A DNA stretch of 64,000 nucleotides from Nordella sp. HKS 07. GTDB taxonomy: Bacteria > Pseudomonadota > Alphaproteobacteria > Rhizobiales > Aestuariivirgaceae. Where the stretch lies: the NCBI RefSeq assembly GCF_011046735.1, contig NZ_CP049258.1, forward strand, positions 4,854,001 through 4,918,000, read 5' to 3'. A program made the position numbers and the translations under genes. Below the pieces are notes generated by a model, which was given only the letters and a program-made list of their open reading frames with translations, was not told the origin of the DNA and ran no database searches. Below are positions 14,905-38,302 of this stretch, piece after piece. Position 1 is the first letter of the stretch. Each line of letters starts with the position of its first letter.

Positions 14905-14940
14905 ATTGGTTGTAATTGGCAAAAATTGGTTTGCAATCGG
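14905..14940 (+). promoter_or_regulatory. Phased ATTGG array A (gntR / FAD oxidoreductase-gmaS)
   Basis: Four pentamers on the plus strand, ATTGG at 14905, 14915 and 14925 and ATCGG at 14936, are spaced 10, 10 and 11 bases. One helical turn per unit puts all copies on one face of the DNA. The array lies in the divergent region between the GntR gene and the gmaS operon. Three similar arrays lie near tmm, tdm and the permease. Confidence 0.6.
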
Positions 14941-15055
14941 TCTGAATTTGTGGATCATTATGCCAGAACCGCGGGTTTTGTCCCGAGAAAAGCAATCAAA
15001 CCGGTTCAGCCCAATCCGCCCGGACTGGGTTTCGCAGGAGGAAAGAGCGCGCGTC

Positions 15056-16402
15056 ATGGCAGTTCCGTCCGGTGTGAAATATGTGATCATCGGGGCCGGC
15101 ATTCACGGTCTCTCCACCGCCTATCATCTGGCATTGAAACTGAAAGAGACCGGCAAGGGCTCGGGCAAGGACGTCCTCGTCCTCGACAAGACGTCGATCG
15201 CCGCCGGTGCATCCGGCATCGCCTGCGGGGTGGTGCGCAACAATTACTATCAGCCGGCCATGCGCGAGCTCATGGCGCATTCGGTGTCGGTCTGGGAGAG
15301 CGATCCCAAGGCCTATTCCTATCACGCCGTCGGCTATATGCAGATCTCGCCGGAGCTCATGCACCAGCAGGTCGGCACCATCTACGAGCAGCAGAAGGCC
15401 ATCGGCTATACCTCGACTTTCATCGAAGGCGAGAAGGATTCGATGACCTATATGAAGGGTCTGTTCGACGACTGGCAGGCCAAGGGCATCACTTCCGTCC
15501 TGCACGAGAAGAAGGGCGGCTACGCCAACAATACCGCCTCGATCTACGGGCTTGCCTCCAAGGCCGAGGCCGAGGGCGTGCGCATCATGACCGGCGTCAC
15601 GGTCAACGGCTTCGAGTTCGGCAGCAATTCGCAGGCCGTGACCGCCGTCAACACCAGCAAGGGCCGCATCGCCTGCGACTATGTCGTGGTCGGCGTGGGG
15701 CCGTGGGTCAACCAGGTCTGGAACATGCTGGACCTGCCGCGCAGCATTTCGATCAAGGGCCGCGACGGCAAGATGCACGACAATGTGCGCATGTGGAAAT
15801 ACTGGTGCCTGGAAGAGGGCACCCTCGGCGTCGACCCCAACATGCACAAGACCAATGACGGCAGGATGCCGCCCGTCATCCATGTCGACACCGACGCGCC
15901 GCTTCATTCCGATGTCGACGGAAGGCTTCTCACCGACAAGCTGTGGGGCCTCTATTACAAGCCAGATTTCAACTTCGGCGGCGTGCAGGGCGGCGCCTCG
16001 CCCTACAAGGTCGAGGGCGAGCCCGACAAGATCGCCATCGACCCCTATGGACCGGATTCGCCCGATTTCATCGTCGGCGACGATTTCATTGAGACATGGT
16101 GCTCGATGCTGGCCCACTGCCAGAAGCGCTTCGAGGGGAAGATCTCCATCTACAAGAAGGACGAGAAATCGGGTGGTCTCGGCTGCTTCACGCCCGACAA
16201 TTTCCCGGTCTTCGACGTGTTCCGCGACAATGTCTTCGTCATCGCGGATTCGAACCACGGCTACAAGATGATCGGCGTCGGCAAGCTCGCCGCGCAGGAG
16301 ATCTGCGGCGAGAAATCGCGCCTGCTCGAGCCGTTCCGCTTCTCTCGCTACGCCGAGGGCAAACTCCATCCCGTCTCCAACAGCCCCTTCCCGTGGAGTT
16401 GA
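15056..16402 (+). CDS. FAD-dependent oxidoreductase (DAO/sarcosine-oxidase-like)
   Basis: This amine- or amino-acid-oxidising flavoprotein of the DAO family has 448 aa. The FAD dinucleotide fold is at the N terminus (VIIGAGIHGLST, Gly13/15/18). A second conserved block is SIAAGASGIACGVVRNNYY. The C-terminal FAD contact region is FVIADSNHGYKMIGVG. The start ATG at 15056 follows an AGGAGG at 15036-15041. The longer frame from 14906 would run through the regulatory array. It is the first gene before gmaS and the glx genes, so it may oxidise N-methylglutamate or a related N-methyl amino acid in place of the usual four-subunit dehydrogenase. That role is inference. Confidence 0.83.
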   Translation: MAVPSGVKYVIIGAGIHGLSTAYHLALKLKETGKGSGKDVLVLDKTSIAAGASGIACGVVRNNYYQPAMRELMAHSVSVWESDPKAYSYHAVGYMQISPELMHQQVGTIYEQQKAIGYTSTFIEGEKDSMTYMKGLFDDWQAKGITSVLHEKKGGYANNTASIYGLASKAEAEGVRIMTGVTVNGFEFGSNSQAVTAVNTSKGRIACDYVVVGVGPWVNQVWNMLDLPRSISIKGRDGKMHDNVRMWKYWCLEEGTLGVDPNMHKTNDGRMPPVIHVDTDAPLHSDVDGRLLTDKLWGLYYKPDFNFGGVQGGASPYKVEGEPDKIAIDPYGPDSPDFIVGDDFIETWCSMLAHCQKRFEGKISIYKKDEKSGGLGCFTPDNFPVFDVFRDNVFVIADSNHGYKMIGVGKLAAQEICGEKSRLLEPFRFSRYAEGKLHPVSNSPFPWS

Positions 16403-16499
16403 TCGACTGACAGTGCCTTAACCCGACCCAACCGGTTCTGCCGCAAAGGGCTTCGCTAGCCGCGCCATCAAGAACCGGACAAACAAGAGGAAACGCCAC

Positions 16500-17972
16500 A
16501 TGACTGATTATGAGAAATTCATCAAAAGCGATGGTCGCGCCGAGCTGATCAAGCAGGTGCGAAAAAAGATCGATCAGCTTGGCATTGAATATCTCTACCT
16601 GCAATTCGTCTCCGTGACCGGCCGCATCATGGGCAAAGGCATCCCGGCCGATCACTGGGAGAACATCGCCAATGGCGGCTTCCAGCTCGTCTATGGCGCG
16701 ACCGTCAATCTGTTCATGAACCGGCGCGGCGAGTATCTGGGTTATGGGCCGGAAGCGGCCGAGCTCGTCGGAGTGCCCGAGCCCGAGACCTTCATGCAGC
16801 TGCCCTGGGACAAGCGCGTCGCGCGCATGTTCTGCACGCTCTTCCGCAATCGCGAGGAGAAGGAGAATCCGGGCGCCTATCTGACCTCCGACTGCCGCGG
16901 CAATCTGCGCCGCATCCATGACCAGTTCGAGAAGGATCATGGCCTGCGCATGCGCCACGGCACCGAGCCCGAGATGATGTGGCTCAGGAAGGACGACAAC
17001 GGCAACCCGAATGGCGGCTATTCCAATCCCTACTGCTATCATATCGACCAGTTCGAGAGCCTGCGCCCCGTCTATATGCGGGTGATCGAATATGGCCGGA
17101 AGATGGGCCTCGACATGATCCAGGGCGACCACGAGGACGCGCCCGGCCAGCTCGAGCTCAACTTCAACTATGACGACGCGCTGCGCACTGCCGACCGCCT
17201 CACCACCTATCGCCAGATCTGCGCCCAGGTCGCGCGCGAGTTCAACATCATCGCCTGCTTCATGTGCAAGCCCTTCATGGGCGTGTCGGCCAATGGCTGC
17301 CACCACAATGTTTCGCTGTGGAAGGGTGGCAAGGACGAGTTCAAGGCGCTCGGCAACGATCCCAAGGCCCTGCCGGGCTTCGAGCACAATTACATGTATC
17401 GCCGCGGCGGCGAGAACACCTTTTTGCCCGACACGAAGGACAGGCAGATGCCGGGCAAGCTCGGCCTCTATACGATCGGCGGCATCGTCAAGCATCTGAG
17501 CGCGCTCACCGCCATCGGCTGCTCGACGGTCAACTCCTATCGCCGGCTGTGGGATACGGGCTTCTGGGCGCCGGTCTTCGCCGACTGGGGATTCCAGAAC
17601 CGCACCACGGGCCTGCGCATCTCCGCACCGGGGCGCTTCGAATACCGAGCCGTCGACTCGATGGTGAATCCCTATCTGATGGCGGGCGCTATCCTGCGCG
17701 CCGCCGATGACGGCATCCGCAACAAGATCGACCCCGGCAAGCCGGAAGAGCGCAACATCTATGCCGCCATGGAAGCCGGCAAGCAGGTGCGCAAGCTGCC
17801 GATGACGCTCGGCGACGCGCTCGAAGCCTTGAAGAAGGACGACGTCATCAAGTCGGCGATGCCCGGCGAGATGCACCGCCTCTACGATGAATACAAGCGC
17901 GATGAATGGGAGCGTTTCCTCCATACGTCGACCCAATGGGATCTCGATACCTATCTCAATTGCTTGCCATGA
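16500..17972 (+). CDS. gmaS: Type III glutamine synthetase, probable gamma-glutamylmethylamide synthetase
   Basis: This is a GlnT/GmaS-type ATP-dependent ligase, 490 aa. It probably joins glutamate and methylamine to gamma-glutamylmethylamide. Conserved catalytic stretches are present: MRHGTEPEMMW, GDHEDAPGQLELNF and GVSANGCHHNVSLW, then a normal C-terminal catalytic domain. A clear ribosome binding site (AGAGGAAA) precedes the ATG at 16500. The next three genes are the glutamate-synthase-like subunits that normally use its product. Type III enzymes that simply make glutamine are hard to exclude, but the presence of tmm and tdm in the same window favours the methylamine role. Confidence 0.85.
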   Translation: MTDYEKFIKSDGRAELIKQVRKKIDQLGIEYLYLQFVSVTGRIMGKGIPADHWENIANGGFQLVYGATVNLFMNRRGEYLGYGPEAAELVGVPEPETFMQLPWDKRVARMFCTLFRNREEKENPGAYLTSDCRGNLRRIHDQFEKDHGLRMRHGTEPEMMWLRKDDNGNPNGGYSNPYCYHIDQFESLRPVYMRVIEYGRKMGLDMIQGDHEDAPGQLELNFNYDDALRTADRLTTYRQICAQVAREFNIIACFMCKPFMGVSANGCHHNVSLWKGGKDEFKALGNDPKALPGFEHNYMYRRGGENTFLPDTKDRQMPGKLGLYTIGGIVKHLSALTAIGCSTVNSYRRLWDTGFWAPVFADWGFQNRTTGLRISAPGRFEYRAVDSMVNPYLMAGAILRAADDGIRNKIDPGKPEERNIYAAMEAGKQVRKLPMTLGDALEALKKDDVIKSAMPGEMHRLYDEYKRDEWERFLHTSTQWDLDTYLNCLP

Positions 17973-18031
17973 ATGAGATCGTCCCGCGCTCCCGCGAGGG
18001 GCGCGGGAACTGAAACGGAAGGAGTCAAATC

Positions 18032-18967
18032 ATGTGCGGTATAGCAGGGCTCATCCACCGCAAGGGATCGGGGAACATCGGTCAGGAAATGACCCAGATG
18101 CTCCAGTCGCTCAAGCATCGCGGGCCCGACTCGACGGGCTACGCCATCTACGGCACGCCCGGGCGCAACGAATATGTCATGCGCTTCAAGGTGGCCGAGC
18201 AGGAGGACATGGCGAAGGGCTTCGACATTCATGACGAAGTCAAGCGCCGCCGCGCCAAGGTCGAGGAGCGCCTGGCGGCGCTTGGCGTGCAGATCATCGA
18301 CAAGGACGAGGCCACCGATTACGCCTATCGCTATCGCATCCAGTATGACGGCGACATGAAGAAGCTCGCCGACTATGTCGAGGATGTCGACGGCACCGAG
18401 ATCCTGTCGATGGGCAATGCGCTCGAGCTCATCAAGGATCTGGGCGATGCGGCGCGCGTCGCCGAGCAGTATGATTTGCGCAAGTTCAAGGGCACGCACG
18501 GCATCGGCCACACGCGCATGGCGACCGAGTCCGATGTCGACATCCGCTCCGCCCATCCGTACTGGGCCTATCCCTATAACGACATCGCCGTCGTTCATAA
18601 TGGCCAGCTCACCAACTATTGGATGATGCGGCGCGAATTCGAGCGGCGCGGCCATCGTTTCATGTCGAATTGCGACTCCGAGCTGCTCGCGGTCTACACC
18701 GCCTACAATCTCGAGCATGGCGCGACACTCGAGGAGTCGCTGCGCCAGTCGATCCAGGACATCGACGGCGTCTTCACCTATCTCGTCTCGACCAAGGACG
18801 CGCTCGGCATGGCCAAGGACACCATGGCGGCCAAGCCCATGGTTCTCTACGAAAGCGACGACCTCGTTGCGCTCGCCTCCGAGGAGGTCGCCATCCGCGC
18901 CGTCATTCCGCACGAGATCGACACCTGGGATCCCTATGATGAGGAGGTTCGCGTATGGCGGGCTTGA
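18032..18967 (+). CDS. mgsA: N-methylglutamate synthase subunit A-like glutaminase (GlxB)
   Basis: This class II glutamine amidotransferase-like subunit has 311 aa. The N-terminal nucleophile Cys2 follows the initiator Met (MCGIAGLIHRKG). Typical Ntn-hydrolase motifs are LKHRGPDSTGYA, GIGHTRMATES, DIAVVHNGQLTNY and SNCDSE. In the gamma-glutamylmethylamide pathway this subunit would release methylamine from the amide and channel it to the synthase subunits. The ribosome binding site GGAAGGAG precedes the ATG. Its last 13 bases overlap the next gene. Confidence 0.87.
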   Translation: MCGIAGLIHRKGSGNIGQEMTQMLQSLKHRGPDSTGYAIYGTPGRNEYVMRFKVAEQEDMAKGFDIHDEVKRRRAKVEERLAALGVQIIDKDEATDYAYRYRIQYDGDMKKLADYVEDVDGTEILSMGNALELIKDLGDAARVAEQYDLRKFKGTHGIGHTRMATESDVDIRSAHPYWAYPYNDIAVVHNGQLTNYWMMRREFERRGHRFMSNCDSELLAVYTAYNLEHGATLEESLRQSIQDIDGVFTYLVSTKDALGMAKDTMAAKPMVLYESDDLVALASEEVAIRAVIPHEIDTWDPYDEEVRVWRA

Positions 18968-19812
18968 CCACCACGAAACAGGCCCATGTCTCGCATGACA
19001 TGGGCATGCACACCGAGGCCTTGCGCGGCAAGACGCAGCAGCGTTTCTTCGATGTGACGGAGGAGGGTGGCGGCTACGGCTATCCGGATGCTCTCGATGT
19101 CGATTTCAACAAGCGCGCCGAACTCGACTGCGAGAAGCTCGACACCAAGCAGATCAATGCGCAGCTGCGCGACCTGATGAAGCGCGGTTATGGCACGATC
19201 GTGCTGCAGAACCCGGGCTCCAAGCATTCCCTCGCCGTCGGCATCCTCAACCGGCTCAATCTCTATATCGAGGGCTCTTGCGGCTACTTCGCCTGCGGCC
19301 TGCTCGACGGGCCGAATGTGAAGATCAAGGGGCGTGTCGGCTGGGCCTGCGGCGAGAACATGCTGTCCGGCACCATTCTCATCGAGAAGAACGCCGGCTC
19401 GCAGTTCGGCGCGGCGCTGCGCGGCGGTGACATAGTCTGCAAAGGCTCGGTTGGTGCGCGCACCGGCATCGACCAGAAGGGCGGCAATATCATCGTCGGC
19501 GGCGACACGGGCTCGTTCTCGGGTTTCATGATGCAGCGCGGCCGCATGGTGATCTGCGGCAATGCCGGCAAGAACCTGGGCGACTCCATGTATGACGGCA
19601 CCATCTATCTGGGCGGCGAGGCGAGGAGCCTCGGCGTCGACGCGGTGCCGGGCGAGATGACCGCGCTCGACCGCGAATGGCTGACCCGCAAGCTTAAGAT
19701 GTACGGCATGTATCCCGCCAAGGGCATCGGCCATTTCAAGAAGATCGTCGCCGGCAAGCAGTTGTGGAACTACGACAATCTCGAGCCCGGCGAGAAGAAG
19801 CTGGTGCTCTAG
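18955..19812 (+). CDS. mgsB: N-methylglutamate synthase subunit B-like GXGXG protein (GlxC)
   Basis: This protein has 285 aa and matches the beta-helical GXGXG C-terminal domain of glutamate synthase as a separate polypeptide. Repeating turns such as GDIVCKGSVGARTG, GGNIIVGGDTGSF and GRMVICGNAGKNLGD are visible from about residue 120 to 215. It is a structural subunit that supports the synthase. Start ATG 18955 overlaps mgsA by 13 bases, so the two are translationally coupled. The next gene is the FMN-binding catalytic subunit. Confidence 0.87.
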   Translation: MAGLTTTKQAHVSHDMGMHTEALRGKTQQRFFDVTEEGGGYGYPDALDVDFNKRAELDCEKLDTKQINAQLRDLMKRGYGTIVLQNPGSKHSLAVGILNRLNLYIEGSCGYFACGLLDGPNVKIKGRVGWACGENMLSGTILIEKNAGSQFGAALRGGDIVCKGSVGARTGIDQKGGNIIVGGDTGSFSGFMMQRGRMVICGNAGKNLGDSMYDGTIYLGGEARSLGVDAVPGEMTALDREWLTRKLKMYGMYPAKGIGHFKKIVAGKQLWNYDNLEPGEKKLVL

Positions 19813-19920
19813 GCTGTCAACCCGGTGAAAGCCGGGATCTACTGAACAGGGACAATCCGGGAAGCGCTGTTCGCGTGGTGAGAATTTAATGGATCCCGGC
19901 TTTCGCCGGGATGACGAAAT
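19813..19920. repeat. Inverted pair of CCCGGC-GAAA-GCCGGG repeats
   Basis: Between mgsB and mgsC lie AACCCGGTGAAAGCCGGGAT (from about 19819) and the opposite-facing ATCCCGGCTTTCGCCGGGAT (from about 19891). A third relative is at 51796-51825. These are common alphaproteobacterial palindromic repeats. Here they sit inside an operon and could form a stem that attenuates or stabilises the transcript. Confidence 0.7.
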
Positions 19921-19936
19921 CAGGTGAGGATCTGCC

Positions 19937-21424
19937 ATGGCCAAAAAACCAGTGAAGAAAGTAGCCAACAAGAAACAGGAAAAGGCGAAGGCGAAGCCCG
20001 CCGCCAGGGCGCTCGCCAAGACCAACGGCAAGAGCGCCGTCAAGCGTACCGCCACCGGCCTTGCCGCGCTGTCGCGCGCGCCCGCCGAGAGCAAGAAATA
20101 TCTCTTGGGCTCGTCCAAGATCTTCACCCCGGAGGTCATGAACGACATCCACATCAAGTCGGAACTCGGCCGCTACCGCATGCGCGGCTTCTCGCTGTTC
20201 AAGAAGATCCCGCATTGGGACGACCTCACCTTCCTGCCCGGCACGCTGACGCGCTTCGTGATCGAAGGCTATCGCGAGAAATGTGACACCAAGACGATCA
20301 TCGGCCCGCGCGCCAAGCGCCCGATGGTGCTCGACATCCCCGTCTATGTGACCGGCATGTCCTTCGGCGCCTTGTCCTATGAGGCCAAGATCGCGCTCGC
20401 CCGCGGCTCGACCATGGCGGGCTCGGCCACCTGCTCGGGCGAGGGCGGCATGATCCCCGACGAGCGGCGCTATTCGATGAAGTGGTTCTATCAGTGTATC
20501 CAGTCGCGCTACGGCTTCAACCCGCATCATCTGAGGCTGGCGGATGCCTGCGAGTTCTTCATCGGCCAGGGCTGCAAGGTCGGCCTCGGCGGCCATCTGA
20601 TGGGTCAGAAGGTGACCGACCAGGTCGCCGAGATGCGCTCGCTGCCGGCCGGCATCGACCAGCGCTCGCCGGCGCGCCATCCCGACTGGCTGGGCCCTGA
20701 CGATCTGGCACTCAAGATCCAGGAGATCCGCGAGGCGACCAACTGGGAGATCCCCATCCAGCTCAAGCTCGGCGCGGCGCGCGTCTATGACGACGTGCGC
20801 ATGGCGGTGAAATGCGATCCGGACTCGATTTATATCGACGCGATGGAGGGCGGCACCGGTGCCGGCCCGCATATCGCGACCGAGGATACGGGCGTTCCCG
20901 GCATCGCCGCGATCCGCGAGGCGCGCCGCGCCATCGACGAGCTCGGCAAGAAGGGCGAGATCTCGCTCGTTTATGCCGGCGGCATCCGCAATGGCGGCGA
21001 TGTCGCCAAGGCCCTGGCGCTCGGCGCCGATGCGATCGCGATCGGCCATTCGGTGCTGATGGCGCTCAACTGCAATAAGCACATAGACGGCGTGACCGAC
21101 TATCCGGCCGAGATCGGCGTCGATGCCGGCTTCTGCTATCACTGCCATACCGGCCGCTGCCCGGTCGGCGTCGCCACCCAGGATCCGGTGCTGCGCCAGC
21201 GCCTCGATCCCGACAAGGCGGCCGAGCGCGTCTACAATTTCCTCCATACGCTCACCATGGAAGCGCAATTGCTGGCGCGTGCCTGCGGCAAGACGAACAT
21301 CCACTCGCTCGAGCCCGAGGATCTGGCCGCCCTCACCATGGAGGCCTCCGCCATGTGCAAGGTGCCGCTCGCCGGCACCAACTACACGGTCGGCATGGAA
21401 GGCGGGAACTATCACAAATATTGA
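19937..21424 (+). CDS. mgsC: N-methylglutamate synthase subunit C-like FMN protein (GlxD)
   Basis: This is the FMN- and iron-sulfur-binding synthase domain of glutamate synthase as a single polypeptide, 495 aa. It should transfer methylamine (or ammonia) to 2-oxoglutarate. The TIM-barrel core has TGMSFGALSYEAK, GEGGMIPDERR, KLGAARVYDD, DAMEGGTGAGP and GGIRNGGDVAKALALGADA. The cysteine cluster CYHCHTGRCPVG suits a 3Fe-4S centre. The first 45 residues are unusually rich in Lys and Ala (MAKKPVKKVANKKQEKAKAK) and are not part of the catalytic fold. Such a tail might bind nucleic acid or a partner, or be unstructured. Confidence 0.88.
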   Translation: MAKKPVKKVANKKQEKAKAKPAARALAKTNGKSAVKRTATGLAALSRAPAESKKYLLGSSKIFTPEVMNDIHIKSELGRYRMRGFSLFKKIPHWDDLTFLPGTLTRFVIEGYREKCDTKTIIGPRAKRPMVLDIPVYVTGMSFGALSYEAKIALARGSTMAGSATCSGEGGMIPDERRYSMKWFYQCIQSRYGFNPHHLRLADACEFFIGQGCKVGLGGHLMGQKVTDQVAEMRSLPAGIDQRSPARHPDWLGPDDLALKIQEIREATNWEIPIQLKLGAARVYDDVRMAVKCDPDSIYIDAMEGGTGAGPHIATEDTGVPGIAAIREARRAIDELGKKGEISLVYAGGIRNGGDVAKALALGADAIAIGHSVLMALNCNKHIDGVTDYPAEIGVDAGFCYHCHTGRCPVGVATQDPVLRQRLDPDKAAERVYNFLHTLTMEAQLLARACGKTNIHSLEPEDLAALTMEASAMCKVPLAGTNYTVGMEGGNYHKY

Positions 21425-21436
21425 CCGACTTCTCGC

Positions 21437-21482
21437 CCTGTTCCCCTCCCCCTTGCGGGGAGGGGGCAGGGGTGGGGGGCGT
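21437..21482. repeat. Extragenic palindromic repeat, copy of the one at 6062
   Basis: The element has the core CCCTCCCCCTTGCGGGGAGG followed by GGCAGGGGTGGGGGG, in the same orientation as the copy between phnY and phnA. It lies between mgsC and the small downstream gene and does not disturb either frame. Confidence 0.75.
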
Positions 21483-26923: not shown

Positions 26924-27370
26924 TCAAAGCGAGGCTGAATAAGTGGCGCGGTTCTTTTTGACCAAGTGATCGAGCGACCAGGCGCCGCCGCCTTGCGCCA
27001 TCAGGAGCAGGAAGCAGGCGGCCCAGGTGCCGTGCGTCGGCCAGGCATCGGGATAGACGAAGACCTCGATGACGAGCGTCATGGCGAGGAGCGCCAGTGC
27101 GGCGAAGCGTGTGCCGAGCCCCAGCACCAGGATGATCGGAAAGAAATGCTCGGCGAAGGCGGCGAGATGCGCCGCGATCACGGGATCGATCAGCGGCAGG
27201 CGGTATTCCTCGCGGAACAGATAGATGGCGTTTTCGGAGACGCGCCAGCCGTCGAGCTTGGTCTGTCCCGATTGCCAGAAGACGGCGGCAGGTGCCACCC
27301 GGGCGACGAGCGCGATCAGCGCATATGGGATACGCTCGAAGAGGGCGCTGACTTTTTCGGCGCGTATCAT
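26924..27370 (-). CDS. DoxX-like membrane protein of the bufferin operon
   Basis: This 148-aa protein has four transmembrane helices and resembles the DoxX family ([23 protein letters not shown] near the start, [23 protein letters not shown] in the middle). DoxX-type genes are common as the last gene of bufferin operons, as here. Its start follows the BufC stop directly (TGAATG), so the two are translated together. The exact role in copper-peptide biology is unknown. Confidence 0.83.
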
Positions 27371-28147
27371 TCACGCCTCCAGCGATGGTACGGCAACGAT
27401 GTCGGCAACGGCGCCGGAGCGCATGAGGTCGGCGAGATTCTGTCCGAGATCGAAATCCGGATCGGTTACGACCGCTTCCTCATATGTCTCGCCGAGCGCG
27501 GCGCCAGCGATCAAGGCGAGCAGGAACACGGCGCTGCCGGCCCCGATCTGGCGCGTGATGACAGACAATTGCGGCCGGGTAACGAGCGCGTCCTCCGCCT
27601 GCCAGCATGTGACCGGCTCGAGCGGTGAAAGTCCTACATTCATCGACCAGATGGTAACGATCGGAAAGGCCGAGCGGACGACACGCGCGGCGGGGTGGAA
27701 GCGAAAGGTCAAGCCGCTCATCCGTTCGGGCGCCATGCGGGCCAGGATCTGCGGCGCGATCGGCACCATGTCGCGGGCGTGATAGGCACGTACTTGCGCG
27801 TCCTCGAGCCGCACGATGTCGGCGAGATAGGGGAGGCCTGCCACCGGTGCGAAGCCCGCAACGAACTCGGCGAAGTCATGGCCATAGCCGAGCAGCACCG
27901 GAGAGGCGGGCGGATGAGCGGTGACATAGTCGCGCGCCATGGCGGTGAAGAACTCCTCACCGACGATCTTCTCGGTGACCGGGAAGCGCGCCGCGAGGGC
28001 GCGCGCCAGGCCCGTCGCCACGTTGTTTCGATAGACGCCATAACGCTTGACGGGCGCGGCCCCGGTCCAGGAAGCGAGACCGGCCGGCAGAGGACGGGTC
28101 CGGTCCAACAGGGCGTCGGCAAATCGTGTCTGCGTATCATGGGGCAT
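27371..28147 (-). CDS. bufC: BufC: DUF2063 partner of the MNIO enzyme
   Basis: This 258-aa protein of the DUF2063 (HvfC/BufC) family helps the MNIO enzyme modify its peptide substrate. The start at 28147 (MPHDTQTRFADALL) begins the family N terminus. A 35-residue longer reading frame overlaps BufB and looks spurious. Characteristic stretches are YRNNVATGLARALAARFPV, GEEFFTAMARDYV and LADIVRLEDAQVRAYHA. It lies between bufB and doxX. In this family the protein binds the precursor leader and delivers it to the iron enzyme. Confidence 0.87.
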   Translation of the reverse strand: MPHDTQTRFADALLDRTRPLPAGLASWTGAAPVKRYGVYRNNVATGLARALAARFPVTEKIVGEEFFTAMARDYVTAHPPASPVLLGYGHDFAEFVAGFAPVAGLPYLADIVRLEDAQVRAYHARDMVPIAPQILARMAPERMSGLTFRFHPAARVVRSAFPIVTIWSMNVGLSPLEPVTCWQAEDALVTRPQLSVITRQIGAGSAVFLLALIAGAALGETYEEAVVTDPDFDLGQNLADLMRSGAVADIVAVPSLEA

Positions 28148-28155
28148 GGTACACC

Positions 28156-29010
28156 TCACGCCGCGGCCGCGCGCCGGGCCCGGTCGAGGATCGCCTGCGC
28201 CGCCAGCGCTTCCCCGCGCAATGTCGGCCAGGCGGGAATCTTGTCGTCCCATTCGATAAGGCTGGCGATCGGACCCGTTTGGGCAATGACTCTTTCATAG
28301 AGGGCCCAGACCGGATCGGCGACTGCGCAGTCATGCGTGTCGATGAGAAGGGGGGCGCCGGCCTCGTCCTCGGTCGCGGCATGGCCGCTCAGATGAATCT
28401 CGCCGACGGCCGTGAGCGGGAAAGCGGCGAGATAAGCGGCGGCCTCCGTTCCGTGATTGGTCGCCGATACGAAGACATTATTGATGTCGAGCAGCAGCCC
28501 GCAGCCGGTGCGGCGCGAGATCTCCGCGAGGAAGTCGGTTTCGGGAATGGTGCTCTCGGCGAAGAGCAGATAAGTCGCGGGATTCTCGAGCAGCATCCGC
28601 CGGCCCAGCGTATCCTGGACCTGATCGACATGGGCGCTGATGCGCCGCAGAGTTTCGTTTGTATAGGGAAGCGGCAGCAGATCGTTGAGGAATACTGTGT
28701 CATGACTCGACCAGGCGAGATGCTCGGAGAAGCTCTCGGGCTGATAGCGCTCGCAGAGTCTCTTCAGTCTCGCGAGATGCGCGCGATCGAGATCCTGCAT
28801 CGAGCCGATCGACAGGCCGACGCCATGCAGCGACAGCGCGTAGTTCTCTCTGATGTAAGTAAGCTGCGCATGCGGCGGACCGCCGTCGCCCATATAGTTC
28901 TCGGCATGAACCTCGAAGAAGCCGATCGGCTGATGGCCTGATACGATTTCGCCAAAATGTTCGGGCTTGAATCCGACGCCGGCGGTGCGCGGCAGCTTGG
29001 TGTGTTCCAT
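28156..29010 (-). CDS. bufB: BufB: MNIO (DUF692) peptide-modifying iron enzyme
   Basis: This multinuclear non-heme iron oxidative enzyme (MNIO, DUF692) has 284 aa. MNIOs convert precursor cysteines, to thiooxazoles in bufferins. The start ATG 29010 is 12 codons inside the longest frame and follows a GGAGATCC-type site. Metal-binding residues typical of the TIM-barrel family are visible in [56 protein letters not shown] and LIDTHDCAV. It is followed by bufC and preceded by two precursor genes. Confidence 0.92.
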
Positions 29011-29064
29011 GTTGGATCTCCGTTTCTGGAGAGCGCGGCGGGACACCCCGCCGCGCGCTTTTTG

Positions 29065-29349
29065 TCAGGATGGCCGCGTGAGGGGCGCGAGGGAGCCTGG
29101 ACCGAAGGGCGTGCTGATCGTGGCACAGGTGCCCTTGGGAACGAGCTTCCAGGAATTGCCCTGATAATCCACCTTGGACGTTCCGGCGCAGGTGGTGCCG
29201 GGTCCGGCGGCGCAGTCATTCTGGCCTTTCAGCGCCACGCCGTAGCATTTCTCTTTCTCGCCGTCGGCGGATGCCTGCGGGATGCTGAGGAGAGTCACGG
29301 CGGTGGCGAGCGAGGCGGCGAGCACGGCCTTTGAGAGGATCGTAGTCAT
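29065..29349 (-). CDS. bufA: Bufferin precursor peptide, second copy (DUF2282)
   Basis: This 94-aa secreted peptide belongs to the DUF2282/bufferin type. It has a signal peptide (residues 1-28, ending SIPQASADG). Four cysteines at 35, 46, 54 and 75 sit in the family frame [12 protein letters not shown], then [14 protein letters not shown], then WKLVPKGTC. The modified peptide is expected to bind copper outside the cytoplasm. Its ATG overlaps the stop of the first precursor by one base (TAATG). The differing loop AAGPGTTC sets it apart from its sister. Confidence 0.9.
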
Positions 29350-29618
29350 TATGACTTCATCGGCTCCAGCGAGCCTTTGCCCTTGGGCGTCACCATGGAC
29401 GTGCAGGTGCCTTTCGGGACCAGCTTGAAGGATTCACCATCATAGTCGGTCGTCGACATGCCCTTGCAGTCATGCATGCCGGCCTTGCAGTCATTCTGGC
29501 CTTTCATGGCTACGCCATAGCATTGCTCTGTCTCCTGGGCCTGGGCCGGAAGGGCGAGCAGAGCCATGGCGGAAGCGAGCGAGCCCGCCAATGCGAGATT
29601 GAGGGAACGGCGATTCAT
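29349..29618 (-). CDS. bufA: Bufferin precursor peptide, first copy (DUF2282)
   Basis: This 89-aa bufferin precursor is the first gene of the operon. It has a signal peptide ([18 protein letters not shown], cleavage near PAQAQ). Cysteines at 33, 44, 51 and 72 lie in [25 protein letters not shown] and FKLVPKGTC. The start at 29618 is fixed by a strong AGGAGG six bases upstream. The longer 133-codon frame would run through the promoter. Two precursors in tandem feeding one BufBC pair is the unusual feature here. Confidence 0.9.
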
Positions 29619-29662
29619 AATCTCCTCCTTGTCAACATGAGCCTCGCAGGCCCATATCGACG

Positions 29663-29690
29663 TATTCGCAAGGAGGCTCGGAGGCATTAC
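29663..29690 (-). promoter_or_regulatory. Probable SigF-type promoter of the bufferin operon
   Basis: On the minus strand GTAATG (29690-29685) is followed after 16 bases by CGAATA (29668-29663). The spacing and sequence fit the GTAACC-type -35 and CGAA-type -10 boxes described for Caulobacter SigF targets. It lies 45 bases upstream of the first bufferin start, a normal leader length. Confidence 0.55.
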
Positions 29691-29734
29691 ACTCGGTACG
29701 GGAATTTTCCGGCGCAAGCGTCGGATGAGAGCCT

Positions 29735-29760
29735 GTAACGAAGTGACCATGGCCGGCGAA
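29735..29760 (+). promoter_or_regulatory. Possible SigF-type promoter of the sigma factor gene
   Basis: On the plus strand GTAACG (29735-29740) and CGAA (29757-29760) are again 16 bases apart, so the sigma gene may drive itself. If real, translation must start at 29779 or later. That leaves a very short leader, so the match may be chance. Confidence 0.4.
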
Positions 29761-31419: not shown

Positions 31420-31986
31420 TCAGCCAGGCCAGGGTTCGGCCATGGCATTCTTCCAATTCGGCCTGAAGCTCAGGACCTCGGCGTCATTGCCGAGATTGGG
31501 ATTGAACAGCCTGTTGTGCCACAGGCTCGCCTCGCGCGAGATATCGCGCGGCGCCAGCCGCTTGACGGCGCAGGACAACCGGTAGCGCTGCGCATATTGC
31601 TCGAAATCGAGCAGCACCGTCTTGAACTTGACCAGGCGCGCGGCGGTGGCCGAGCCCTTGGCGAAGACGGCGGTGATCTCGTCGGAGAAGAGCTCAGGCA
31701 ACTGGTAGAAATCCGCCGCCAGATATTTAAGGCCTGCCTCGAAAGCCTGACGGTGGTCATTCGTCTTCTGAAGCTGGAACTTGAAGAAGGCGGTACTCTC
31801 CTCGGGATTGTTCGGCACCAGCAGAATTGTCATTTCTGGAATGATGATCTCGCCCATGAGGCTCGCGACCTGGGGTCGGAAGCCCGGCATGGGTGTCCCG
31901 CCATGATCGCGCATAGCCATCTGTCGGAGCCGGCACTGCCAGGCAATAAAATTGCTCTTGAGTTCGCTGTTGGAGAGTCGTTTCAT
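31420..31986 (-). CDS. Conserved-looking protein of unknown function divergent from tmm
   Basis: This 188-aa soluble protein has no family I recognise. From the ATG at 31986 it reads KRLSNSELKSNFIAWQCRLR, then GGTPMPGFRPQV, GEIIIPEMTILLVPNNPEES, HRQAFEAGLKYLAADFYQ and a C-terminal RDISREASLWHNRLFNPNLG. A TTG twelve codons upstream with a nearby GGAAAG is an alternative start. Codon use is like that of its neighbours. It shares the 160-base divergent region, with its ATTGG array, with tmm. Co-regulation with trimethylamine oxidation is therefore likely, and a sensing or accessory role is possible. Confidence 0.7.
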   Translation of the reverse strand: MKRLSNSELKSNFIAWQCRLRQMAMRDHGGTPMPGFRPQVASLMGEIIIPEMTILLVPNNPEESTAFFKFQLQKTNDHRQAFEAGLKYLAADFYQLPELFSDEITAVFAKGSATAARLVKFKTVLLDFEQYAQRYRLSCAVKRLAPRDISREASLWHNRLFNPNLGNDAEVLSFRPNWKNAMAEPWPG

Positions 31987-32043
31987 TAATTCACTCTGAG
32001 CCTGACCAATGCCGCACTGCAATATACTCTTTCCGATTGCAAT

Positions 32044-32080
32044 ATTGGTTCAGAATTGGCCTAATAGTGGTTGGAATTGG
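32044..32080 (+). promoter_or_regulatory. Phased ATTGG array B (unknown gene / tmm)
   Basis: ATTGG at 32044 and 32055, AGTGG at 32066 and ATTGG at 32076 are spaced 11, 11 and 10 bases. The array lies in the divergent gap, 69 bases before the tmm start. The pattern is like arrays A, C and D. Confidence 0.6.
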
Positions 32081-32148
32081 TCGGCAAGTCAAAAATATAA
32101 CGTCCGCCCGCCATGGGGCAGGGCCGGCGAAAGAGGAGAGCCTGGGAA

Positions 32149-33519
32149 ATGACGAGAGTTGCGGTGATTGGCGCGGGACCATCCGGATTGGCGCAATTGC
32201 GGGCCTTCCAGTCGGCCCGGAAGAAGGGGGCCAAGATCCCCGAAGTGGTCTGCTTCGAGAAGCAGGAGGATTGGGGTGGCCTGTGGAACTACACTTGGCG
32301 CACCGGCCTCGACGAGCACGGCGAGCCGGTGCATGGCAGCATGTATCGTTATCTGTGGTCCAATGGCCCCAAGGAGTGCCTGGAATTCGCCGACTACACC
32401 TTCGAGGAGCATTTCGGCAAGCCGATTGCGTCCTATCCGCCGCGCGCCGTGCTGTGGGACTATATCAAGGGCCGCGTGCAGAAGGCCGGCGTGCGCAAAT
32501 GGGTGCGCTTCTGCACACCCGTACGCATGGTGACCTACAGCAAGAAGACGAAGAAATTCACCGTCACCGCGCATGACCGCAAGAAGGACAGGATGTATGC
32601 GGAGGAGTTCGACTATGTCGTGGTGGCCACCGGCCATTTCTCGACGCCGCATGTTCCCTATTTCGACGGCCTCGCGGCTTTCAACGGCCGTGTGATGCAC
32701 GCTCATGATTTCCGCGACGCGCTCGAATTCAAGGGCAAGGATGTCCTCATCGTCGGCCGCAGCTACTCGGCCGAGGATATCGGCTCGCAATGCTGGAAAT
32801 ACGGGGCGAAATCGGTCACCGCGAGCTACCGCTCGAAGCCGATGGGCTTCAACTGGCCGGACAATTTCACCGAGCGTCCGCTGCTCCAGAAACTCGTGAA
32901 CAAGACCGCTCACTTCAAGGACGGCTCATCCAAGGAAGTCGACGCGATCATCCTGTGCACCGGTTATCTGCATCACTTTCCCTTCCTCACCGACGATCTG
33001 CGGCTCAAGACGACGAACCGTTTGTGGCCGCTGGGCCTCTATAAGGGTATCGCGTGGGAGGACAATCCGCGGCTCTTCTACATCGGCATGCAGGACCAGT
33101 TCTATACGTTCAACATGTTCGACGCCCAGGCTTGGTATGCCCGCGACGTCATGATGGGCCGCATCAAGCTTCCCTCCAAGGACAAGATGGCCAAGCACAG
33201 CAAGGCCTGGCGCAAGCGCGAGGAGAAGCTCGAGAATGCCGAGCAGATGATCTGGTTCCAGGGCGACTATGTGAAGGAGCTCTTGGAGGCCACCGATTAC
33301 CCGAAGTTCGACATCGAGGCGACCAACCATACTTTCATGGAGTGGGAGCACCACAAGGTGGACGACATTATGGGGTTCCGCAACAAGGCCTATCGTTCTC
33401 TGATGACCGGCACCATGTCTCCCGCCCATCACACCCCGTGGGTTGACGCCATGGATGATTCCATGGAGTCATATCTGGGCAATGGCAAAACAGGATCACG
33501 ACGGGAAGCGGCCGAGTAA
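32149..33519 (+). CDS. tmm: Trimethylamine monooxygenase-like flavin monooxygenase
   Basis: This bacterial FMO has 456 aa and should oxidise trimethylamine to TMAO with FAD and NADPH. The FAD site is GAGPSG at 8-13. The FMO signature [11 protein letters not shown] is at 178-188 with ATGHFS at 160-165. The NADPH site GRSYSAED at 203-210 includes the tyrosine known to matter in Tmm. Long collinear stretches ([51 protein letters not shown]) match Tmm and not Baeyer-Villiger enzymes. Start ATG 32149 follows AGAGGAGAG. Dimethyl sulfide and other amines may also be substrates. The tdm gene is 1.7 kb away. Confidence 0.9.
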
Positions 33520-34591: not shown

Positions 34592-34608
34592 TGCGGGGAG
34601 TGTTGTTT

Positions 34609-34856: not shown

Positions 34857-35159
34857 TGAGGCGAGAGGCTTGCCGCCGCGCCGTTTCGCCAGAGACTGAA
34901 TCAGCTTCCAGTCTCCGCTGATTAGCGCTTCCTTCTTGGACCGAGACCATCCTTTGATCTTGCGCTCTGCGGCAATTGCATCGACGACAAGATCGAAGTA
35001 CTCCGCATAAACGAGCCGGACGGGAAGTCGTGACGCGGTATAGGCACCTGGCGAGAGCTTCATGAGATGTTCAGACAGACGTTAATCGGGCTCTTCAGCA
35101 CGCGTCAGGCCGGTATAGTAGCTGCCGTCCGCGCAATGCAGGATGTAAACCCAAGCCAT
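34851..35159 (-). pseudogene. GIY-YIG endonuclease gene with an in-frame stop
   Basis: This is a single-domain GIY-YIG nuclease of the small UvrC-N-like kind, 102 codons. The minus strand reads MAWVYILHCADGSYYTGLTR (the GIY-YIG core as VYI and YTG), then AEEPD, then TAA at 35084-35082. The same frame goes straight on with RLSEHLMKLSPGAYTASRLP, the normal continuation, to KRRGGKPLASS. A one-base change made the stop. The gene lies exactly between inverted copies of the REP-like element, and its stop codon is inside the left repeat. An internal ATG at 35063 could still give the last 70 residues, without the active site. Confidence 0.8.
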
Positions 35160-35171
35160 TCTTGTCTCGCC

Positions 35172-35222
35172 TGAAGGACCCTTCGAGGCAACGCCTTCGG
35201 CGTTGCTCCTCAGGGTGAGGGA
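35172..35222. repeat. Inverted copy of the REP-like element beside the GIY-YIG gene
   Basis: On the plus strand it reads AGGACCCTTCGAGGC, then the palindrome GCAACGCCTTCGGCGTTGC, then TCCTCAGGGTGAGG. This is the reverse complement of the copies at 34609-34856. It ends 13 bases from the start codon of the GIY-YIG gene. Confidence 0.8.
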
Positions 35223-35239
35223 TTGAGGGAAAAGTCGCT

Positions 35240-37624
35240 CTACGACCGCGGCTTCGTCTTGTCCGGATCGTAATGCGCGAAGCGCACGATGCGGGCCGGG
35301 AGCCGCTTCTGGTGGCCGTCGAGCTTGCCGATCTCGACTTCGGTGCCGATCACCGAATGAGTGACGTCGACCCTTGCGAGCGCGATGTTTTTCTTCAGCA
35401 CCGGCGAGCGCGTGCCGCTGGTGACGACGCCGATCTGGGCGCGCCCGATATGGACGCAGTCGCCATGGCCGACCGCGACATTGGAATCGATATCGAGTCC
35501 GACCAGCTTGTGGCGCGGATGTTCCTTGCGCTCGAGCAGCGCCGCCTTGCCGATGAAGTCGTCGGTCTTGGTCTTGAGCGGCACGGTGAAGCCGATGCCG
35601 GCCTCGAAGGGATCGGTCTGATCGGAGAATTCGTAATGCGCGAAGATGAGTCCAGCCTCGATGCGCAGCATATCGAGCGCCTCGAGACCGAGCGGAGCGA
35701 GCCCGTATTTCCGGCCCGCCTCCCAGACGGCGTCGAAGACGGCGAGCGCGTCCTTGGGATGGCAGAAGATCTCGTAGCCGAGCTCGCCCGTATAGCCGGT
35801 GCGCGACACGACGAGCGGCACGCCCTCGAAGCCGCCGATGCGGCCGACCGTGAAGCGGAACCATTCGAGCTCGCCGATCTGGGGCTGTGCCGGCGGCGTC
35901 CATACGATCTCCTTGAGGAGGTCGCGCGATTTCGGGCCCTGCACCGCGATATTGTGGAGCTGATCGGTCGATGAGCGCACCCAGGCCTTGAAGCCCATCT
36001 TCTCGGCCTGCTCGCGCAGCCAGATGCCGCTATAGTCGTCGCCGCCGATCCAGCGGAAATTGTTTTGGGCCAGGCGGAATACCGTGCCGTCGTCGATCAT
36101 GCCGCCATGCTCGTAGCACATCGCGGTGTAGACGACTTGGCCCGGTGACAGCTTGCGCATGTCGCGCGTCACGCAATATTGCATGAGCGCCTCGGCATCG
36201 GGACCGGTCACCTCGAATTTGCGCAAGGGCGAGAGGTCCATCACCGCCACGCGTTCGCGGCAGGCCCAATATTCCTCGACCGGTCCGTCATTGTTAAAGC
36301 GCTGCGGCAGCCAGTAGCCGCGATATTCGGTATAATTGCGGGTCAGCGCCGAAAAGCGCGCATGGAACGCGGTTTCGCGCGTCATCTGGGGGTCGGCGTC
36401 AGGAGTCATGCGATAGGCCACCGCTCTCGAGAATTTTTCTTTGCCGGAATAGGTGCGGACATGGATGTCGGTCGGGTTCCAGCCATTGCCGACATTGATG
36501 TCATCGGGACAGGCCGACGAAACGCAGACGAGATCGGTGAGTGCGCGCATCAGCACATAGTCGCCGGGACGCGACCACGCCTCGTCGTAGTAGATCTGGT
36601 TCTGGTCGTCGACGCGGGTATTGTAGAAATAATTGATCGCCTCCCAGCCCGGACGCTCCGTCACGCCATAGGGCTTGAGCGCGCGGTTGAAGTTCTCCGT
36701 GCAGTTCACATGTCCTGGATAGCCGACATCGTCGTAGTAGCGGCTGCTGCAGGCGGTGGCGAAGAAATCGTGCCGGCCGACCGTGTCCTGGACGATCTCG
36801 ACCAGCGGCTCGAAGTCCAAGCCGAACATCTTCGACAGCAGCCCGGGTGTCGGATAAGCGCGCCCGGTCATGGTGCGCGTGATCGTGCCGTCGAGCGCGT
36901 TTTCGATCCCCTTGTCGAGCTTGCGCCGGGAGAAGCACTGGAAGTCGGTCATCTGCCGGCCGGCGACATCAATGATCTGGATGAATTCGCCGGCGCGCAC
37001 CGTATAGGCGCGGGCGGTCGCCCGATCGACGCGGATGTCCTGGATGGGATCGGCGAGGGGATCGGGCAGGGGGACAGGTTCGTTCTCGCGGGGCGGCGTG
37101 GCGCGCTCGACCTTCACTTGTAAGGGCGTCGCCGTGTCCTGCGCCTCGAGATCCATCTTGCCGCCGGGCGCGCCGATGATCACGACGCCATCGCGCCGCG
37201 CCCTGAAGTCCTGTTTGCTGCCGGCGGGAGACAGGGCGCCGAAAAGCCGGATGGCCTTGGCGCCGCCGAGATCGATCTTGCGCCGGGCGAGCGCCATGCG
37301 GCTGCGCGCCGCCGTTACGTCGTCGCTGGCAAGCGAGGCCCTGATGCCCTTGGCATCGCCGGCTTCGGTTACGCCCAGCAGCGCGGGATCGCATCGGCCG
37401 TCGCCGCCGGCCGCGACGATCTCGCCCGCCTGACCGCCTTCGAGATCGGTGACGGTGAGCCGGTCGCCGGCCCTGATATCGAGGATCAGCGTGCCGCCGC
37501 CCGCGATCTTGTAGAGTTCGGTGCCGCGCGGCAGCGCCGGCAGGCCCGGCGTGTAGATGAGGCTCGGACGTGGCGCGTGCCCGGCAACCACGCGGTTCTG
37601 GAAGCTCTTCTCGAACCTGTTCAT
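35240..37624 (-). CDS. tdm: Trimethylamine N-oxide demethylase-like protein (DUF1989 plus GcvT)
   Basis: This 794-aa two-domain enzyme matches the architecture of TMAO demethylase Tdm. The N-terminal half (about 1-370) is DUF1989, a probable metal-binding domain with cysteine-rich blocks (ATACSSRYYDD, HVNCTENF, LVCVSSACPDD). The C-terminal half (about 400-790) is a GcvT/DMGDH-type tetrahydrofolate domain (HGGMIDDGTVFR, LGYEIFCHPKDA, ALDMLRIEAGLIF). Tdm splits TMAO to dimethylamine and formaldehyde, and the folate domain captures the one-carbon unit. Start ATG 37624 (MNRFEKSFQNRVV) is 108 codons inside the longest frame. It is divergent from the flavin reductase, across phased array C. Confidence 0.87.
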   Translation of the reverse strand: MNRFEKSFQNRVVAGHAPRPSLIYTPGLPALPRGTELYKIAGGGTLILDIRAGDRLTVTDLEGGQAGEIVAAGGDGRCDPALLGVTEAGDAKGIRASLASDDVTAARSRMALARRKIDLGGAKAIRLFGALSPAGSKQDFRARRDGVVIIGAPGGKMDLEAQDTATPLQVKVERATPPRENEPVPLPDPLADPIQDIRVDRATARAYTVRAGEFIQIIDVAGRQMTDFQCFSRRKLDKGIENALDGTITRTMTGRAYPTPGLLSKMFGLDFEPLVEIVQDTVGRHDFFATACSSRYYDDVGYPGHVNCTENFNRALKPYGVTERPGWEAINYFYNTRVDDQNQIYYDEAWSRPGDYVLMRALTDLVCVSSACPDDINVGNGWNPTDIHVRTYSGKEKFSRAVAYRMTPDADPQMTRETAFHARFSALTRNYTEYRGYWLPQRFNNDGPVEEYWACRERVAVMDLSPLRKFEVTGPDAEALMQYCVTRDMRKLSPGQVVYTAMCYEHGGMIDDGTVFRLAQNNFRWIGGDDYSGIWLREQAEKMGFKAWVRSSTDQLHNIAVQGPKSRDLLKEIVWTPPAQPQIGELEWFRFTVGRIGGFEGVPLVVSRTGYTGELGYEIFCHPKDALAVFDAVWEAGRKYGLAPLGLEALDMLRIEAGLIFAHYEFSDQTDPFEAGIGFTVPLKTKTDDFIGKAALLERKEHPRHKLVGLDIDSNVAVGHGDCVHIGRAQIGVVTSGTRSPVLKKNIALARVDVTHSVIGTEVEIGKLDGHQKRLPARIVRFAHYDPDKTKPRS

Positions 37625-37659
37625 GGCACGTAAGGCTAGCTCAATTAGGGGGAGAGCAC

Positions 37660-37705
37660 AATGGTATGAAATTGGGCGTGATTGGTCTTGTCTGGTAGGG
37701 GGTGG
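37660..37705 (+). promoter_or_regulatory. Phased ATTGG array C (tdm / flavin reductase)
   Basis: AATGG at 37660, ATTGG at 37671 and 37681, TCTGG at 37691 and GGTGG at 37701 are spaced 11, 10, 10 and 10 bases. The array sits in the 154-base divergent region and continues the pattern of arrays A and B. Confidence 0.55.
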
Positions 37706-37778
37706 TTGGTCCAGTCGGAGGAGTTGCGGTCCGGAAGCCTCGCATGCCAGATACAGCCCATCTTTCTTGGAGACCGGA

Positions 37779-38264
37779 ATGAACGTGCCTATTGACAGCC
37801 GCGCCTTTCGTACCGCCTTGGGGGCTTTCGCCACCGGCGTGACCATCGTCACCACGCGCGGTCCCACTGGCGAGCCGATCGGAAACACCGTCAACTCCTT
37901 CAACGCCGTGTCCCTCGATCCGCCGCTCGTTCTGTGGAGCCTCGGCAAGCGCGCCTATAGTTTCAAGACATATCTTTCGGCCGACCATTTCGCGGTGAAT
38001 GTACTCCGCGAGGGCCAGGAAGAATTGTCGCGCCGTTTTTCCCGCTCGCTCGACGATAAATGGACCGGCCTCGACTACGAGACCTGGGACACCGGCTGTC
38101 CGATCCTGCCCAACGCGCTGGCCGTTTTCGAATGCAAGACCGCTTATACTTACCAGGGCGGCGATCATGTCATCTTTGTCGGTGAGGTCCTCAATTTCGA
38201 CCATGACCGCAACGGCAAGCCTCTGGTCTTCTGGCACGGCGGCTACCACGCCGTGACCAAATAG
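37779..38264 (+). CDS. Flavin reductase family protein
   Basis: This NAD(P)H:flavin reductase-like protein has 161 aa and supplies reduced flavin to partner monooxygenases. Family stretches are AFATGVTIVTTRG, GNTVNSFNAVSLDPPLVLWSL and a C-terminal YQGGDHVIFVGEVL plus FWHGGYHAV. The start ATG 37779 begins the conserved N terminus. It is divergent from tdm. Tmm carries its own NADPH site and would not need it, so the partner may be a two-component oxygenase elsewhere, possibly for dimethylamine. That is inference. Confidence 0.87.
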   Translation: MNVPIDSRAFRTALGAFATGVTIVTTRGPTGEPIGNTVNSFNAVSLDPPLVLWSLGKRAYSFKTYLSADHFAVNVLREGQEELSRRFSRSLDDKWTGLDYETWDTGCPILPNALAVFECKTAYTYQGGDHVIFVGEVLNFDHDRNGKPLVFWHGGYHAVTK

Positions 38265-38266
38265 GG

Positions 38267-38302
38267 CCAATTAAAACCGCTTGTAACCAAAACCATACCA
38301 TT
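38267..38302 (-). promoter_or_regulatory. Phased array D, reverse orientation (upstream of permease)
   Basis: CCAAT at 38267, CCGCT at 38277, CCAAA at 38287 and CCATT at 38298 are spaced 10, 10 and 11 bases. Read on the minus strand these are AATGG, TTTGG, AGCGG and ATTGG. It lies right after the flavin reductase stop and 214 bases before the permease start. The rest of this 251-base gap shows a CCGCTGCGGCGG hairpin and nothing else clear. Confidence 0.5.

Follow-up and report, generated by a model that had tools for sequence, protein, structure and literature searches.

The operator consensus of the FadR subfamily of GntR regulators is a palindrome, NyGTM-N0-1-KACNy, to which direct-repeat exceptions are known (PMC4494728; here and below, statements from cited papers are taken from excerpts of their text unless the main text is named). 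NanR of Escherichia coli, an FCD/FadR-subfamily member, has a (GGTATA)3 operator and owes its cooperativity to a 32-residue N-terminal extension (PMC8012715); it binds direct repeats of TGGTATAW (PMC4494728). Two regulators have been described for the trimethylamine pathway of Ruegeria pomeroyi: TmoR, a GntR repressor of tmm that does not act on tdm or downstream genes, and TmaR, an AraC-type master regulator of tmm, tdm, gmaS-mgs and further pathway genes (PMC13390433). Here we analyse a stretch of 64,000 nucleotides of Nordella sp. HKS 07 (G000:C1:4854001-4918000, hereafter the window; genome G000 is a single contig of 7.18 Mb), in which methylated-amine genes are preceded by arrays of ATTGG-like boxes repeated head-to-tail about once per helical turn. 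From sequence comparisons, we consider it very probable that these arrays are tandem operators of an FCD-type GntR regulator, P0001, which would control its own gene and the pathway. The main text of PMC13390433 does not contain the words motif, binding site or palindrome, the excerpts of PMC3728764 hold nothing on a GntR regulator for the trimethylamine pathway, and in the open-licence literature we found no title or opening abstract describing such arrays.

P0001 is encoded at 14142..14897 on the minus strand and combines a GntR winged helix-turn-helix (HTH) domain (PF00392, 3.3e-20, residues 33-93) with an FCD domain (PF07729, 8.2e-26, residues 114-239). Its named relatives include proteins of Aestuariivirga sp. 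YIM B02566 (95%) and Taklimakanibacter lacteus (92%). Because an FCD domain takes the place of an aminotransferase-like C-terminal domain, P0001 is not a GntR protein of the MocR type, whose members bind direct repeats. Among solved structures and NCBIfam models, its best matches are PdhR, LldR and other FCD GntR regulators, which have a similar half-site; its score against the NCBIfam NanR model is 102.6 bits, below the cut-off of 260. P0001 and NanR share the combination of a GntR winged HTH with an FCD-type domain, a TGGTAT-like half-site arranged as a direct repeat and not as a palindrome (the 11-base units here are ATTGGTNTG), and a single type of operator that recurs at several operons of a catabolic regulon (PMC8012715, PMC4494728). 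The NanR repeats lie under half a turn apart, whereas those described here are spaced by about a full turn and number 2 to 6 boxes; the regulons are not the same, and the N-terminal extension is variable here. The arrays do not follow the FadR-subfamily palindrome. NanR is the closest precedent, and the full-turn phase would represent a second direct-repeat geometry for the GntR family. TmoR resembles P0001 in family and pathway, but acts on tmm alone, while P0001 is proposed for the whole pathway; TmaR coordinates the same pathway genes, but belongs to another protein family (PMC13390433).

Phased ATTGG arrays and their conservation

The observation of phased ATTGG arrays is confirmed, largely as first described. 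All four arrays of the earlier note are present at their positions with steps of 10-11 bases; three are strong, and the one ahead of the permease gene is degenerate and weak. Array 1 (14905..14950, plus strand) consists of five boxes, ATTGG at 14905, 14915 and 14925, ATCGG at 14936 and ATTTG at 14946, spaced by 10, 10, 11 and 10 bases. Its first box lies 7 base pairs (bp) upstream of the gntR start and its last box 105 bp upstream of the start of the DAO-gmaS-mgs operon; the array is kept in genus loci L024-L028, where it adjoins the gntR start codon, and in further relatives. Array 2 (32044..32080, plus strand) has four boxes, ATTGG at 32044, 32055 and 32076 and AGTGG at 32066 (spacing 11, 11 and 10), which start 105 to 73 bp upstream of tmm, the divergent P0005 gene being on the other side. 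Array 3 (37660..37705, plus strand) sits between the divergent tdm and flavin reductase genes and contains AATGG at 37660, ATTGG at 37671 and 37681, TCTGG at 37691 and GGTGG at 37701 (spacing 11, 10, 10 and 10). Array 4 (38267..38302, minus strand) reads ATTGG, AGCGG, TTTGG and AATGG (CCAAT at 38267, CCGCT at 38277, CCAAA at 38287 and CCATT at 38298; spacing 10, 10 and 11) and lies about 215-250 bp upstream of the gene for a trimethylamine N-oxide (TMAO) permease.

The exact pair ATTGGn5-6ATTGG occurs four times in the window, compared with 0.20 expected from dinucleotide shuffles, none of 100 of which reached four; genome-wide there are 23 such places, including the four in the window. The stricter triple TTGGn6-7TTGGn6-7TTGG is found exactly in only two places in G000, at gmaS and at G000:C1:6045359 ahead of clpS, and its reversed control is found nowhere in the genome. 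The permease array is weakly supported by sequence comparison: six genus sequences (L133, L134, L135, L136, L138, L141) retain the four CC dinucleotides at the same spacing, and the script criterion calls an array in four of seven permease loci (L135, L136, L137, L141), but not in the window's own copy. The TMAO permease gene of G054 (L134, L141) is tandemly duplicated, with a six-box array upstream of the second copy.

We examined regions upstream of gntR in the family, the order and the class. The main count covers 41 GntR rows with 450 bp upstream of each (L033 and L034, both with arrays, were left out). An exact ATTGG pair at 10-11 bases is present in 27 of the 30 regions belonging to orthologues of at least 51% identity, in one of five at 45-50% and in one of six below; in mononucleotide shuffles of the 30 orthologue regions the mean was 0.05 and the count never exceeded 2. 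An unbiased test of the spacing is provided by tallying distances over 5-45 bases. In the 35 rows of at least 45% identity, same-strand ATTGG-ATTGG distances are concentrated at 10 (17), 11 (32), 20-22 (24) and 31-32 (10) bases. The earlier note had made its reading depend beforehand on the spacing being kept in relatives, as these peaks show it to be. Pairs in the order ATTGG..CCAAT, the only opposite-strand order tallied, number 15 over the same range, with none at 6-14 bases and groups at 28-31 (6) and 39-41 (5). The same-strand helical peaks and the small number of ATTGG..CCAAT pairs agree with the earlier description of direct repeats unlike the usual GntR palindrome, yet NanR is a precedent. 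We rejected a palindromic reading based on ATTG-N5-CAAT, which can be found within ATTGGTTTGCAAT, since it is missing from arrays such as those in L030 and L043 and since ATTGG..CCAAT pairs are scarce.

At the class level the pair is present in 20 of 29 further gntR loci (31 rows less that of the own genome and one that had no locus), several of which are near-copies and some of which have a 9-base step. For the 55 arrays taken from other genera, the pentamer and the range of spacings were imposed by selection (two exact ATTGG and steps of 9-11); the base following ATTGG was not, and it is T in 80-85% of units. These arrays contain 2 to 6 boxes, and 20 of the 55 have only two. A recurrent core in the genus and order loci is a pair at 11 bases, ATTGGTTTGCAATYGGT, and together with the two-box arrays this suggests that two boxes may be the minimal unit. 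Arrays called by the script criterion precede tmm in 14 of 26 loci of GntR-bearing genomes (out of 28 rows; L100 and L101 were left out owing to incomplete sequence) and tdm in 15 of 27 (out of 31 rows; L112, L129, L132 and a further row that had no locus were left out, the N-terminus being absent), with five own-genus loci in each count. Loci L024-L031 overlap some of the L033-L055 genomes and were counted once.

A predicted regulon and its link to the GntR clade

To scan genomes we used R1, a sequence-only profile built from ten four-box arrays of other genera (alignment A4), eight of them from upstream of gntR (L037, L038, L039, L054, L055, L056, L057, L069) and two from upstream of tdm (L118, L120). 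Alignments A1-A3 were set aside, as MAFFT had displaced some rows by one box. In G000, where 150 of 416 first-look candidates were scored and weaker sites could therefore be missed, R1 returned the gntR/gmaS (E 3.9e-8), tmm (0.0046) and tdm (0.27) arrays and nothing further at E<=10; neither the permease array nor the clpS triple was among the matches. The earlier note had proposed such a scan, and it singled out three pathway promoters. The tmm array is the cleanest test of R1, because the training set contained no own-genus and no tmm arrays; the gntR array, by contrast, has homologues among the training arrays.

The earlier statement that arrays occur only beside pathway genes thus holds for the R1 matches, but not for the exact triple ahead of clpS. 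This three-box ATTGG array (G000:C1:6045358-6045383; L018, L148 about 5359-5384) lies between a phasin gene and clpS/clpA, where clpA is named by Pfam and clpS by position and size only. Among the corresponding regions of four genus relatives, the first box is kept in none and the last two, a 10-base pair, in three; the pair is lost in L259, and L260 has a gap at that place. The pair upstream of a GbdR-like AraC gene in the genus relatives G056 and G054 (L240, L241) is ATTGGTATTAATTGG, and the same 15-mer also stands ahead of clpS in G056 (L257).

We then applied R1 to 31 relative genomes, chosen for having the GntR, at a threshold of E<=0.1. The 53 rows obtained come from 25 genomes and include the ten training arrays. 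Judged by coordinates, the region upstream of gntR accounts for 20 rows, including 8 training arrays, that of tdm for 8, including 2 training arrays, and that of tmm for 6. Of the 43 non-training rows, 12 are ahead of gntR, six of tdm, six of tmm and 15 of other named genes (39/43 altogether); the remaining four are in L173, L179 (inside an open reading frame without a match), L186 (at a contig end) and L193 (inside an open reading frame). Seven rows precede a ProX-type binding protein that is 70-100% identical to that of L180 and is tmoX by inference. Further targets are an ammonium transporter (three times), a formate-tetrahydrofolate (THF) ligase (once) and a P0005 homologue (twice), as well as one dimethylglycine-dehydrogenase-like gene and one ABC binding protein (L187), for both of which a pathway link is at most putative. 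Much of this is brought together in the cluster of G178, where one array lies between divergent mgsCBA-gmaS and gntR, tmm and tmoX-tmoW each have an array, and amt is also present. The genome scan, the tmm and tdm arrays and the pathway-related targets in relatives all favour the single methylated-amine regulon suggested in the earlier note. Our best reading of these comparisons is a new predicted regulon, which in relatives would include a TMAO-type ABC transporter, ammonium transporters and formate-THF ligase.

The arrays follow the P0001 lineage. In a tree of 57 hand-chosen GntR rows (54 GntR matches and three tmm-linked GntR proteins, near-copies left out), 26 of the 31 rows in the clade containing P0001 (99/99 support) carry the pair. 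On the tree 11 changes of the label are required, compared with 17.2 in shuffles, and none of 500 shuffles was as low. As a counter-sample we took ten of 139 plasmid records, in which tmm has 66-83% identity, from Rhizobium, Sinorhizobium, Phyllobacterium, Shinella, Paracoccus, Thioclava and Aquabacterium. No ATTGG pair is present in the 197,437 bases of these ten pathway clusters, which have no P0001 orthologue nearby. The tmm-adjacent GntR proteins of Paracoccus, Thioclava, L049 and L082 occupy a TmoR-like position and form a separate 100/100 clade; those of Paracoccus and Thioclava, serving as proxies for TmoR, whose own sequence was not part of the comparison, are 34-35% identical to P0001. 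No pair is found in the Paracoccus, Thioclava and L082 stretches, nor within 450 bp upstream of L049. Two genomes, G053 (L084/L049) and G105 (L082), combine a P0001 orthologue that has an array with a TmoR-like GntR encoded beside tmm; in G105 there is a pair at gntR and none at the tmm locus, and tmm may have been handed over to the second regulator. Its own promoter, the clade and the plasmid control together point to the GntR protein at 14142-14897, one of the readers the earlier note had entertained.

Proposed regulation by P0001 and alternative readers

We propose that each ATTGGT-like box is one GntR half-site. Boxes placed head-to-tail about once per helical turn would align the winged HTH domains on one face of the DNA, and P0001 probably binds them cooperatively, two boxes being the smallest functional unit. 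Its targets would be its own gene, DAO-gmaS-mgs, tmm together with P0005, tdm together with the flavin reductase gene, and possibly the TMAO permease gene. P0001 most likely represses when methylated amines are absent, and binding of a carboxylate-type intermediate to the FCD metal site would release it. A carboxylate effector is suggested by the invariance, across the 21 sequences of alignment A6, of D163, H167, H215 and H237, which we take to be the Asp/His metal site of the FCD domain; N-methylglutamate and gamma-glutamylmethylamide are candidate effectors. Repression is the likelier sign because array 1 abuts the gntR start, with the predicted gntR promoter upstream (a sigma-70-like site at 14984-14957 on the minus strand, by consensus match only, with array 1 just downstream), and because most FCD regulators repress. 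The sign is put forward tentatively, however, because a forward sigma-70-like site was found neither at gmaS, where there are two minus-strand sites, nor at tmm; TTGCAA-N17-CCTAAT around tmm boxes 1-2 is a reading by eye only.

Several observations weigh against regulation of the pathway by P0001 through these arrays. The pair is lacking in 5 of the 31 clade rows and present in 10 of the 26 tree rows outside the clade; in GntR-bearing genomes it is also lacking at 12 of 26 tmm loci and 12 of 27 tdm loci, and six of the 31 relatives yielded no R1 row at E<=0.1. The R1 result in the own genome comes from 150 of 416 candidates, and the exact triple ahead of clpS has no known pathway link. At the permease array, the flanks in the six genus sequences are well kept too. 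An N-terminal extension of the kind that makes NanR cooperative does not seem to be conserved among P0001 orthologues: 32 residues precede the winged HTH in P0001, the extensions in L043, L045 and L046 are short, and the others share no sequence by eye. The NanR-like extension, varying in both length and sequence, was set aside as a candidate feature. Lastly, the plasmid control covers plasmids, on which P0001 has no match at 1e-40, with chromosomes not searched, and among the seven annotated plasmid stretches the gma-operon promoter is covered in L270 only.

Could an AraC/GlxA-type activator such as TmaR read the arrays instead? Since the two HTH motifs of AraC proteins contact successive major grooves, a spacing of about one turn between half-sites would be suitable for such proteins. 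GbdR-like AraC genes adjoin arrays in L180/L181 and L190, a pair precedes another AraC gene in two genus relatives (L240, L241), and TmaR binds the tmm, tdm and gmaS promoters in R. pomeroyi (PMC13390433). The distribution of these proteins nevertheless makes such a reader very unlikely. The AraC protein of L181 is present at 94-100% identity in only two (G103, G178) of 32 GntR-bearing genomes, the best matches elsewhere being at most 46%; the closest AraC protein of the window's genome (44%) is encoded next to soxA/soxG genes, and L261 and L265 lack an array. The pathway cluster of Paracoccus aminovorans includes a GlxA regulator but no pair; as this regulator shares 40% identity with the closest AraC protein just mentioned, the Paracoccus cluster is not demonstrably free of TmaR. 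The pair is found upstream of 4 of 30 AraC genes, two of them array-linked, compared with 27 of 30 gntR genes, and the 28 other AraC loci (L227-L254) contain two pairs in 104,550 bp.

A second alternative is that another, unlinked factor reads the arrays and gntR is merely one of its targets. Target status by itself cannot separate a reader from a target; the gene for P0005, too, frequently adjoins an array, and pairs occur upstream of some GntR genes outside the P0001 clade. We judge this very unlikely, as the arrays follow the gntR clade across families and orders and are absent from the ten plasmid clusters without a P0001 orthologue, P0005 is predicted not to be an HTH protein, and ATTGGT resembles FCD half-sites. 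That the arrays arose by chance clustering or are A/T tracts that bend DNA, as the degenerate permease array and the clpS triple might suggest, is hardly credible given the excess in the window and upstream of the gntR orthologues over shuffles, the unselected T after the pentamer and the scarcity of pairs in the AraC loci L227-L254.

Pathway genes, P0005 and significance

The names tmm, tdm and TMAO permease, given earlier from the sequence, are borne out by NCBIfam equivalog cut-offs. The trimethylamine monooxygenase gene tmm (32149..33519, plus strand) scores 858.8 bits with NF058570 (cut-off 675), the TMAO demethylase gene tdm (35240..37624, minus strand) 1257.9 bits with NF053776, the Methylocella-type model (cut-off 1100), and the APC-type TMAO permease gene (38516..40330, plus strand) 841.4 bits with NF053774 (cut-off 690). 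The flavin reductase gene divergent from tdm is at 37779..38264 on the plus strand (Pfam Flavin_Reduct). The gma operon, also on the plus strand, is headed by a gene for a flavin adenine dinucleotide-dependent oxidoreductase of the DAO family (15056..16402; Pfam DAO). This is followed by gmaS (16500..17972; Pfam Gln-synt_C), predicted from its context to encode a glutamine-synthetase-like gamma-glutamylmethylamide synthetase, and by mgsA-, mgsB- and mgsC-like genes (18032-18967, 18955-19812 and 19937-21424; block 18032..21424), whose products have Pfam GATase_6, GXGXG and Glu_synthase domains and, again from context, would be N-methylglutamate synthase subunits.

The gene for P0005, a protein of 188 residues (31420..31986, minus strand), lies on the far side of array 2 and runs divergently to tmm; at the thresholds applied, the protein falls into no Pfam, NCBIfam or PHROG family. 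Homologues were seen in L076-L080, L188, L190, L191, L192 and L139. Of 11 genomes with such loci, which were fetched for other reasons and are not a random sample of the linkage, eight have an array at a distance of 27-93 bp from the gene; G077 has a weaker array about 103 bp away, and G212 and G367 have none close by. The AlphaFold model of P0005 (predicted local distance difference test 90) has a compact alpha/beta fold, for which Foldseek returned only weak matches to flavin mononucleotide-binding split barrels. We rejected P0005 as a regulator, its predicted fold not being an HTH. Also within the methylated-amine region, DoxX, DUF2063, MbnB/TglH/ChrH-type RiPP enzyme and DUF2282 genes follow one another at 26924-29750 on the minus strand, in a row that we take to resemble a metal-responsive RiPP (ribosomally synthesised and post-translationally modified peptide), bufferin-like operon.

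Trimethylamine catabolism is relevant to nitrogen and one-carbon cycling, and the published regulation that we found comes from one marine Roseobacter (PMC13390433). A different and widespread regulator is predicted here, with an operator that can be recognised in sequence, so that the regulon would be readable from genomes alone; the suggested new members are the TMAO-type transporter, the ammonium transporter, formate-THF ligase and P0005. We regard as evenly balanced the broader proposition that the arrays represent a separate class of FCD-GntR operators, in which half-sites are arranged head-to-tail a full pitch apart, each dimer covers two consecutive boxes on one face of the DNA, dimers polymerise along the array and the number of boxes (2 to 6) sets the sensitivity of the promoter, and that their reader is the main regulator of trimethylamine, N-methylglutamate and ammonium genes in many Alphaproteobacteria, replacing or standing above TmoR and TmaR. 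The stoichiometry of binding to such arrays becomes directly testable for the GntR family.

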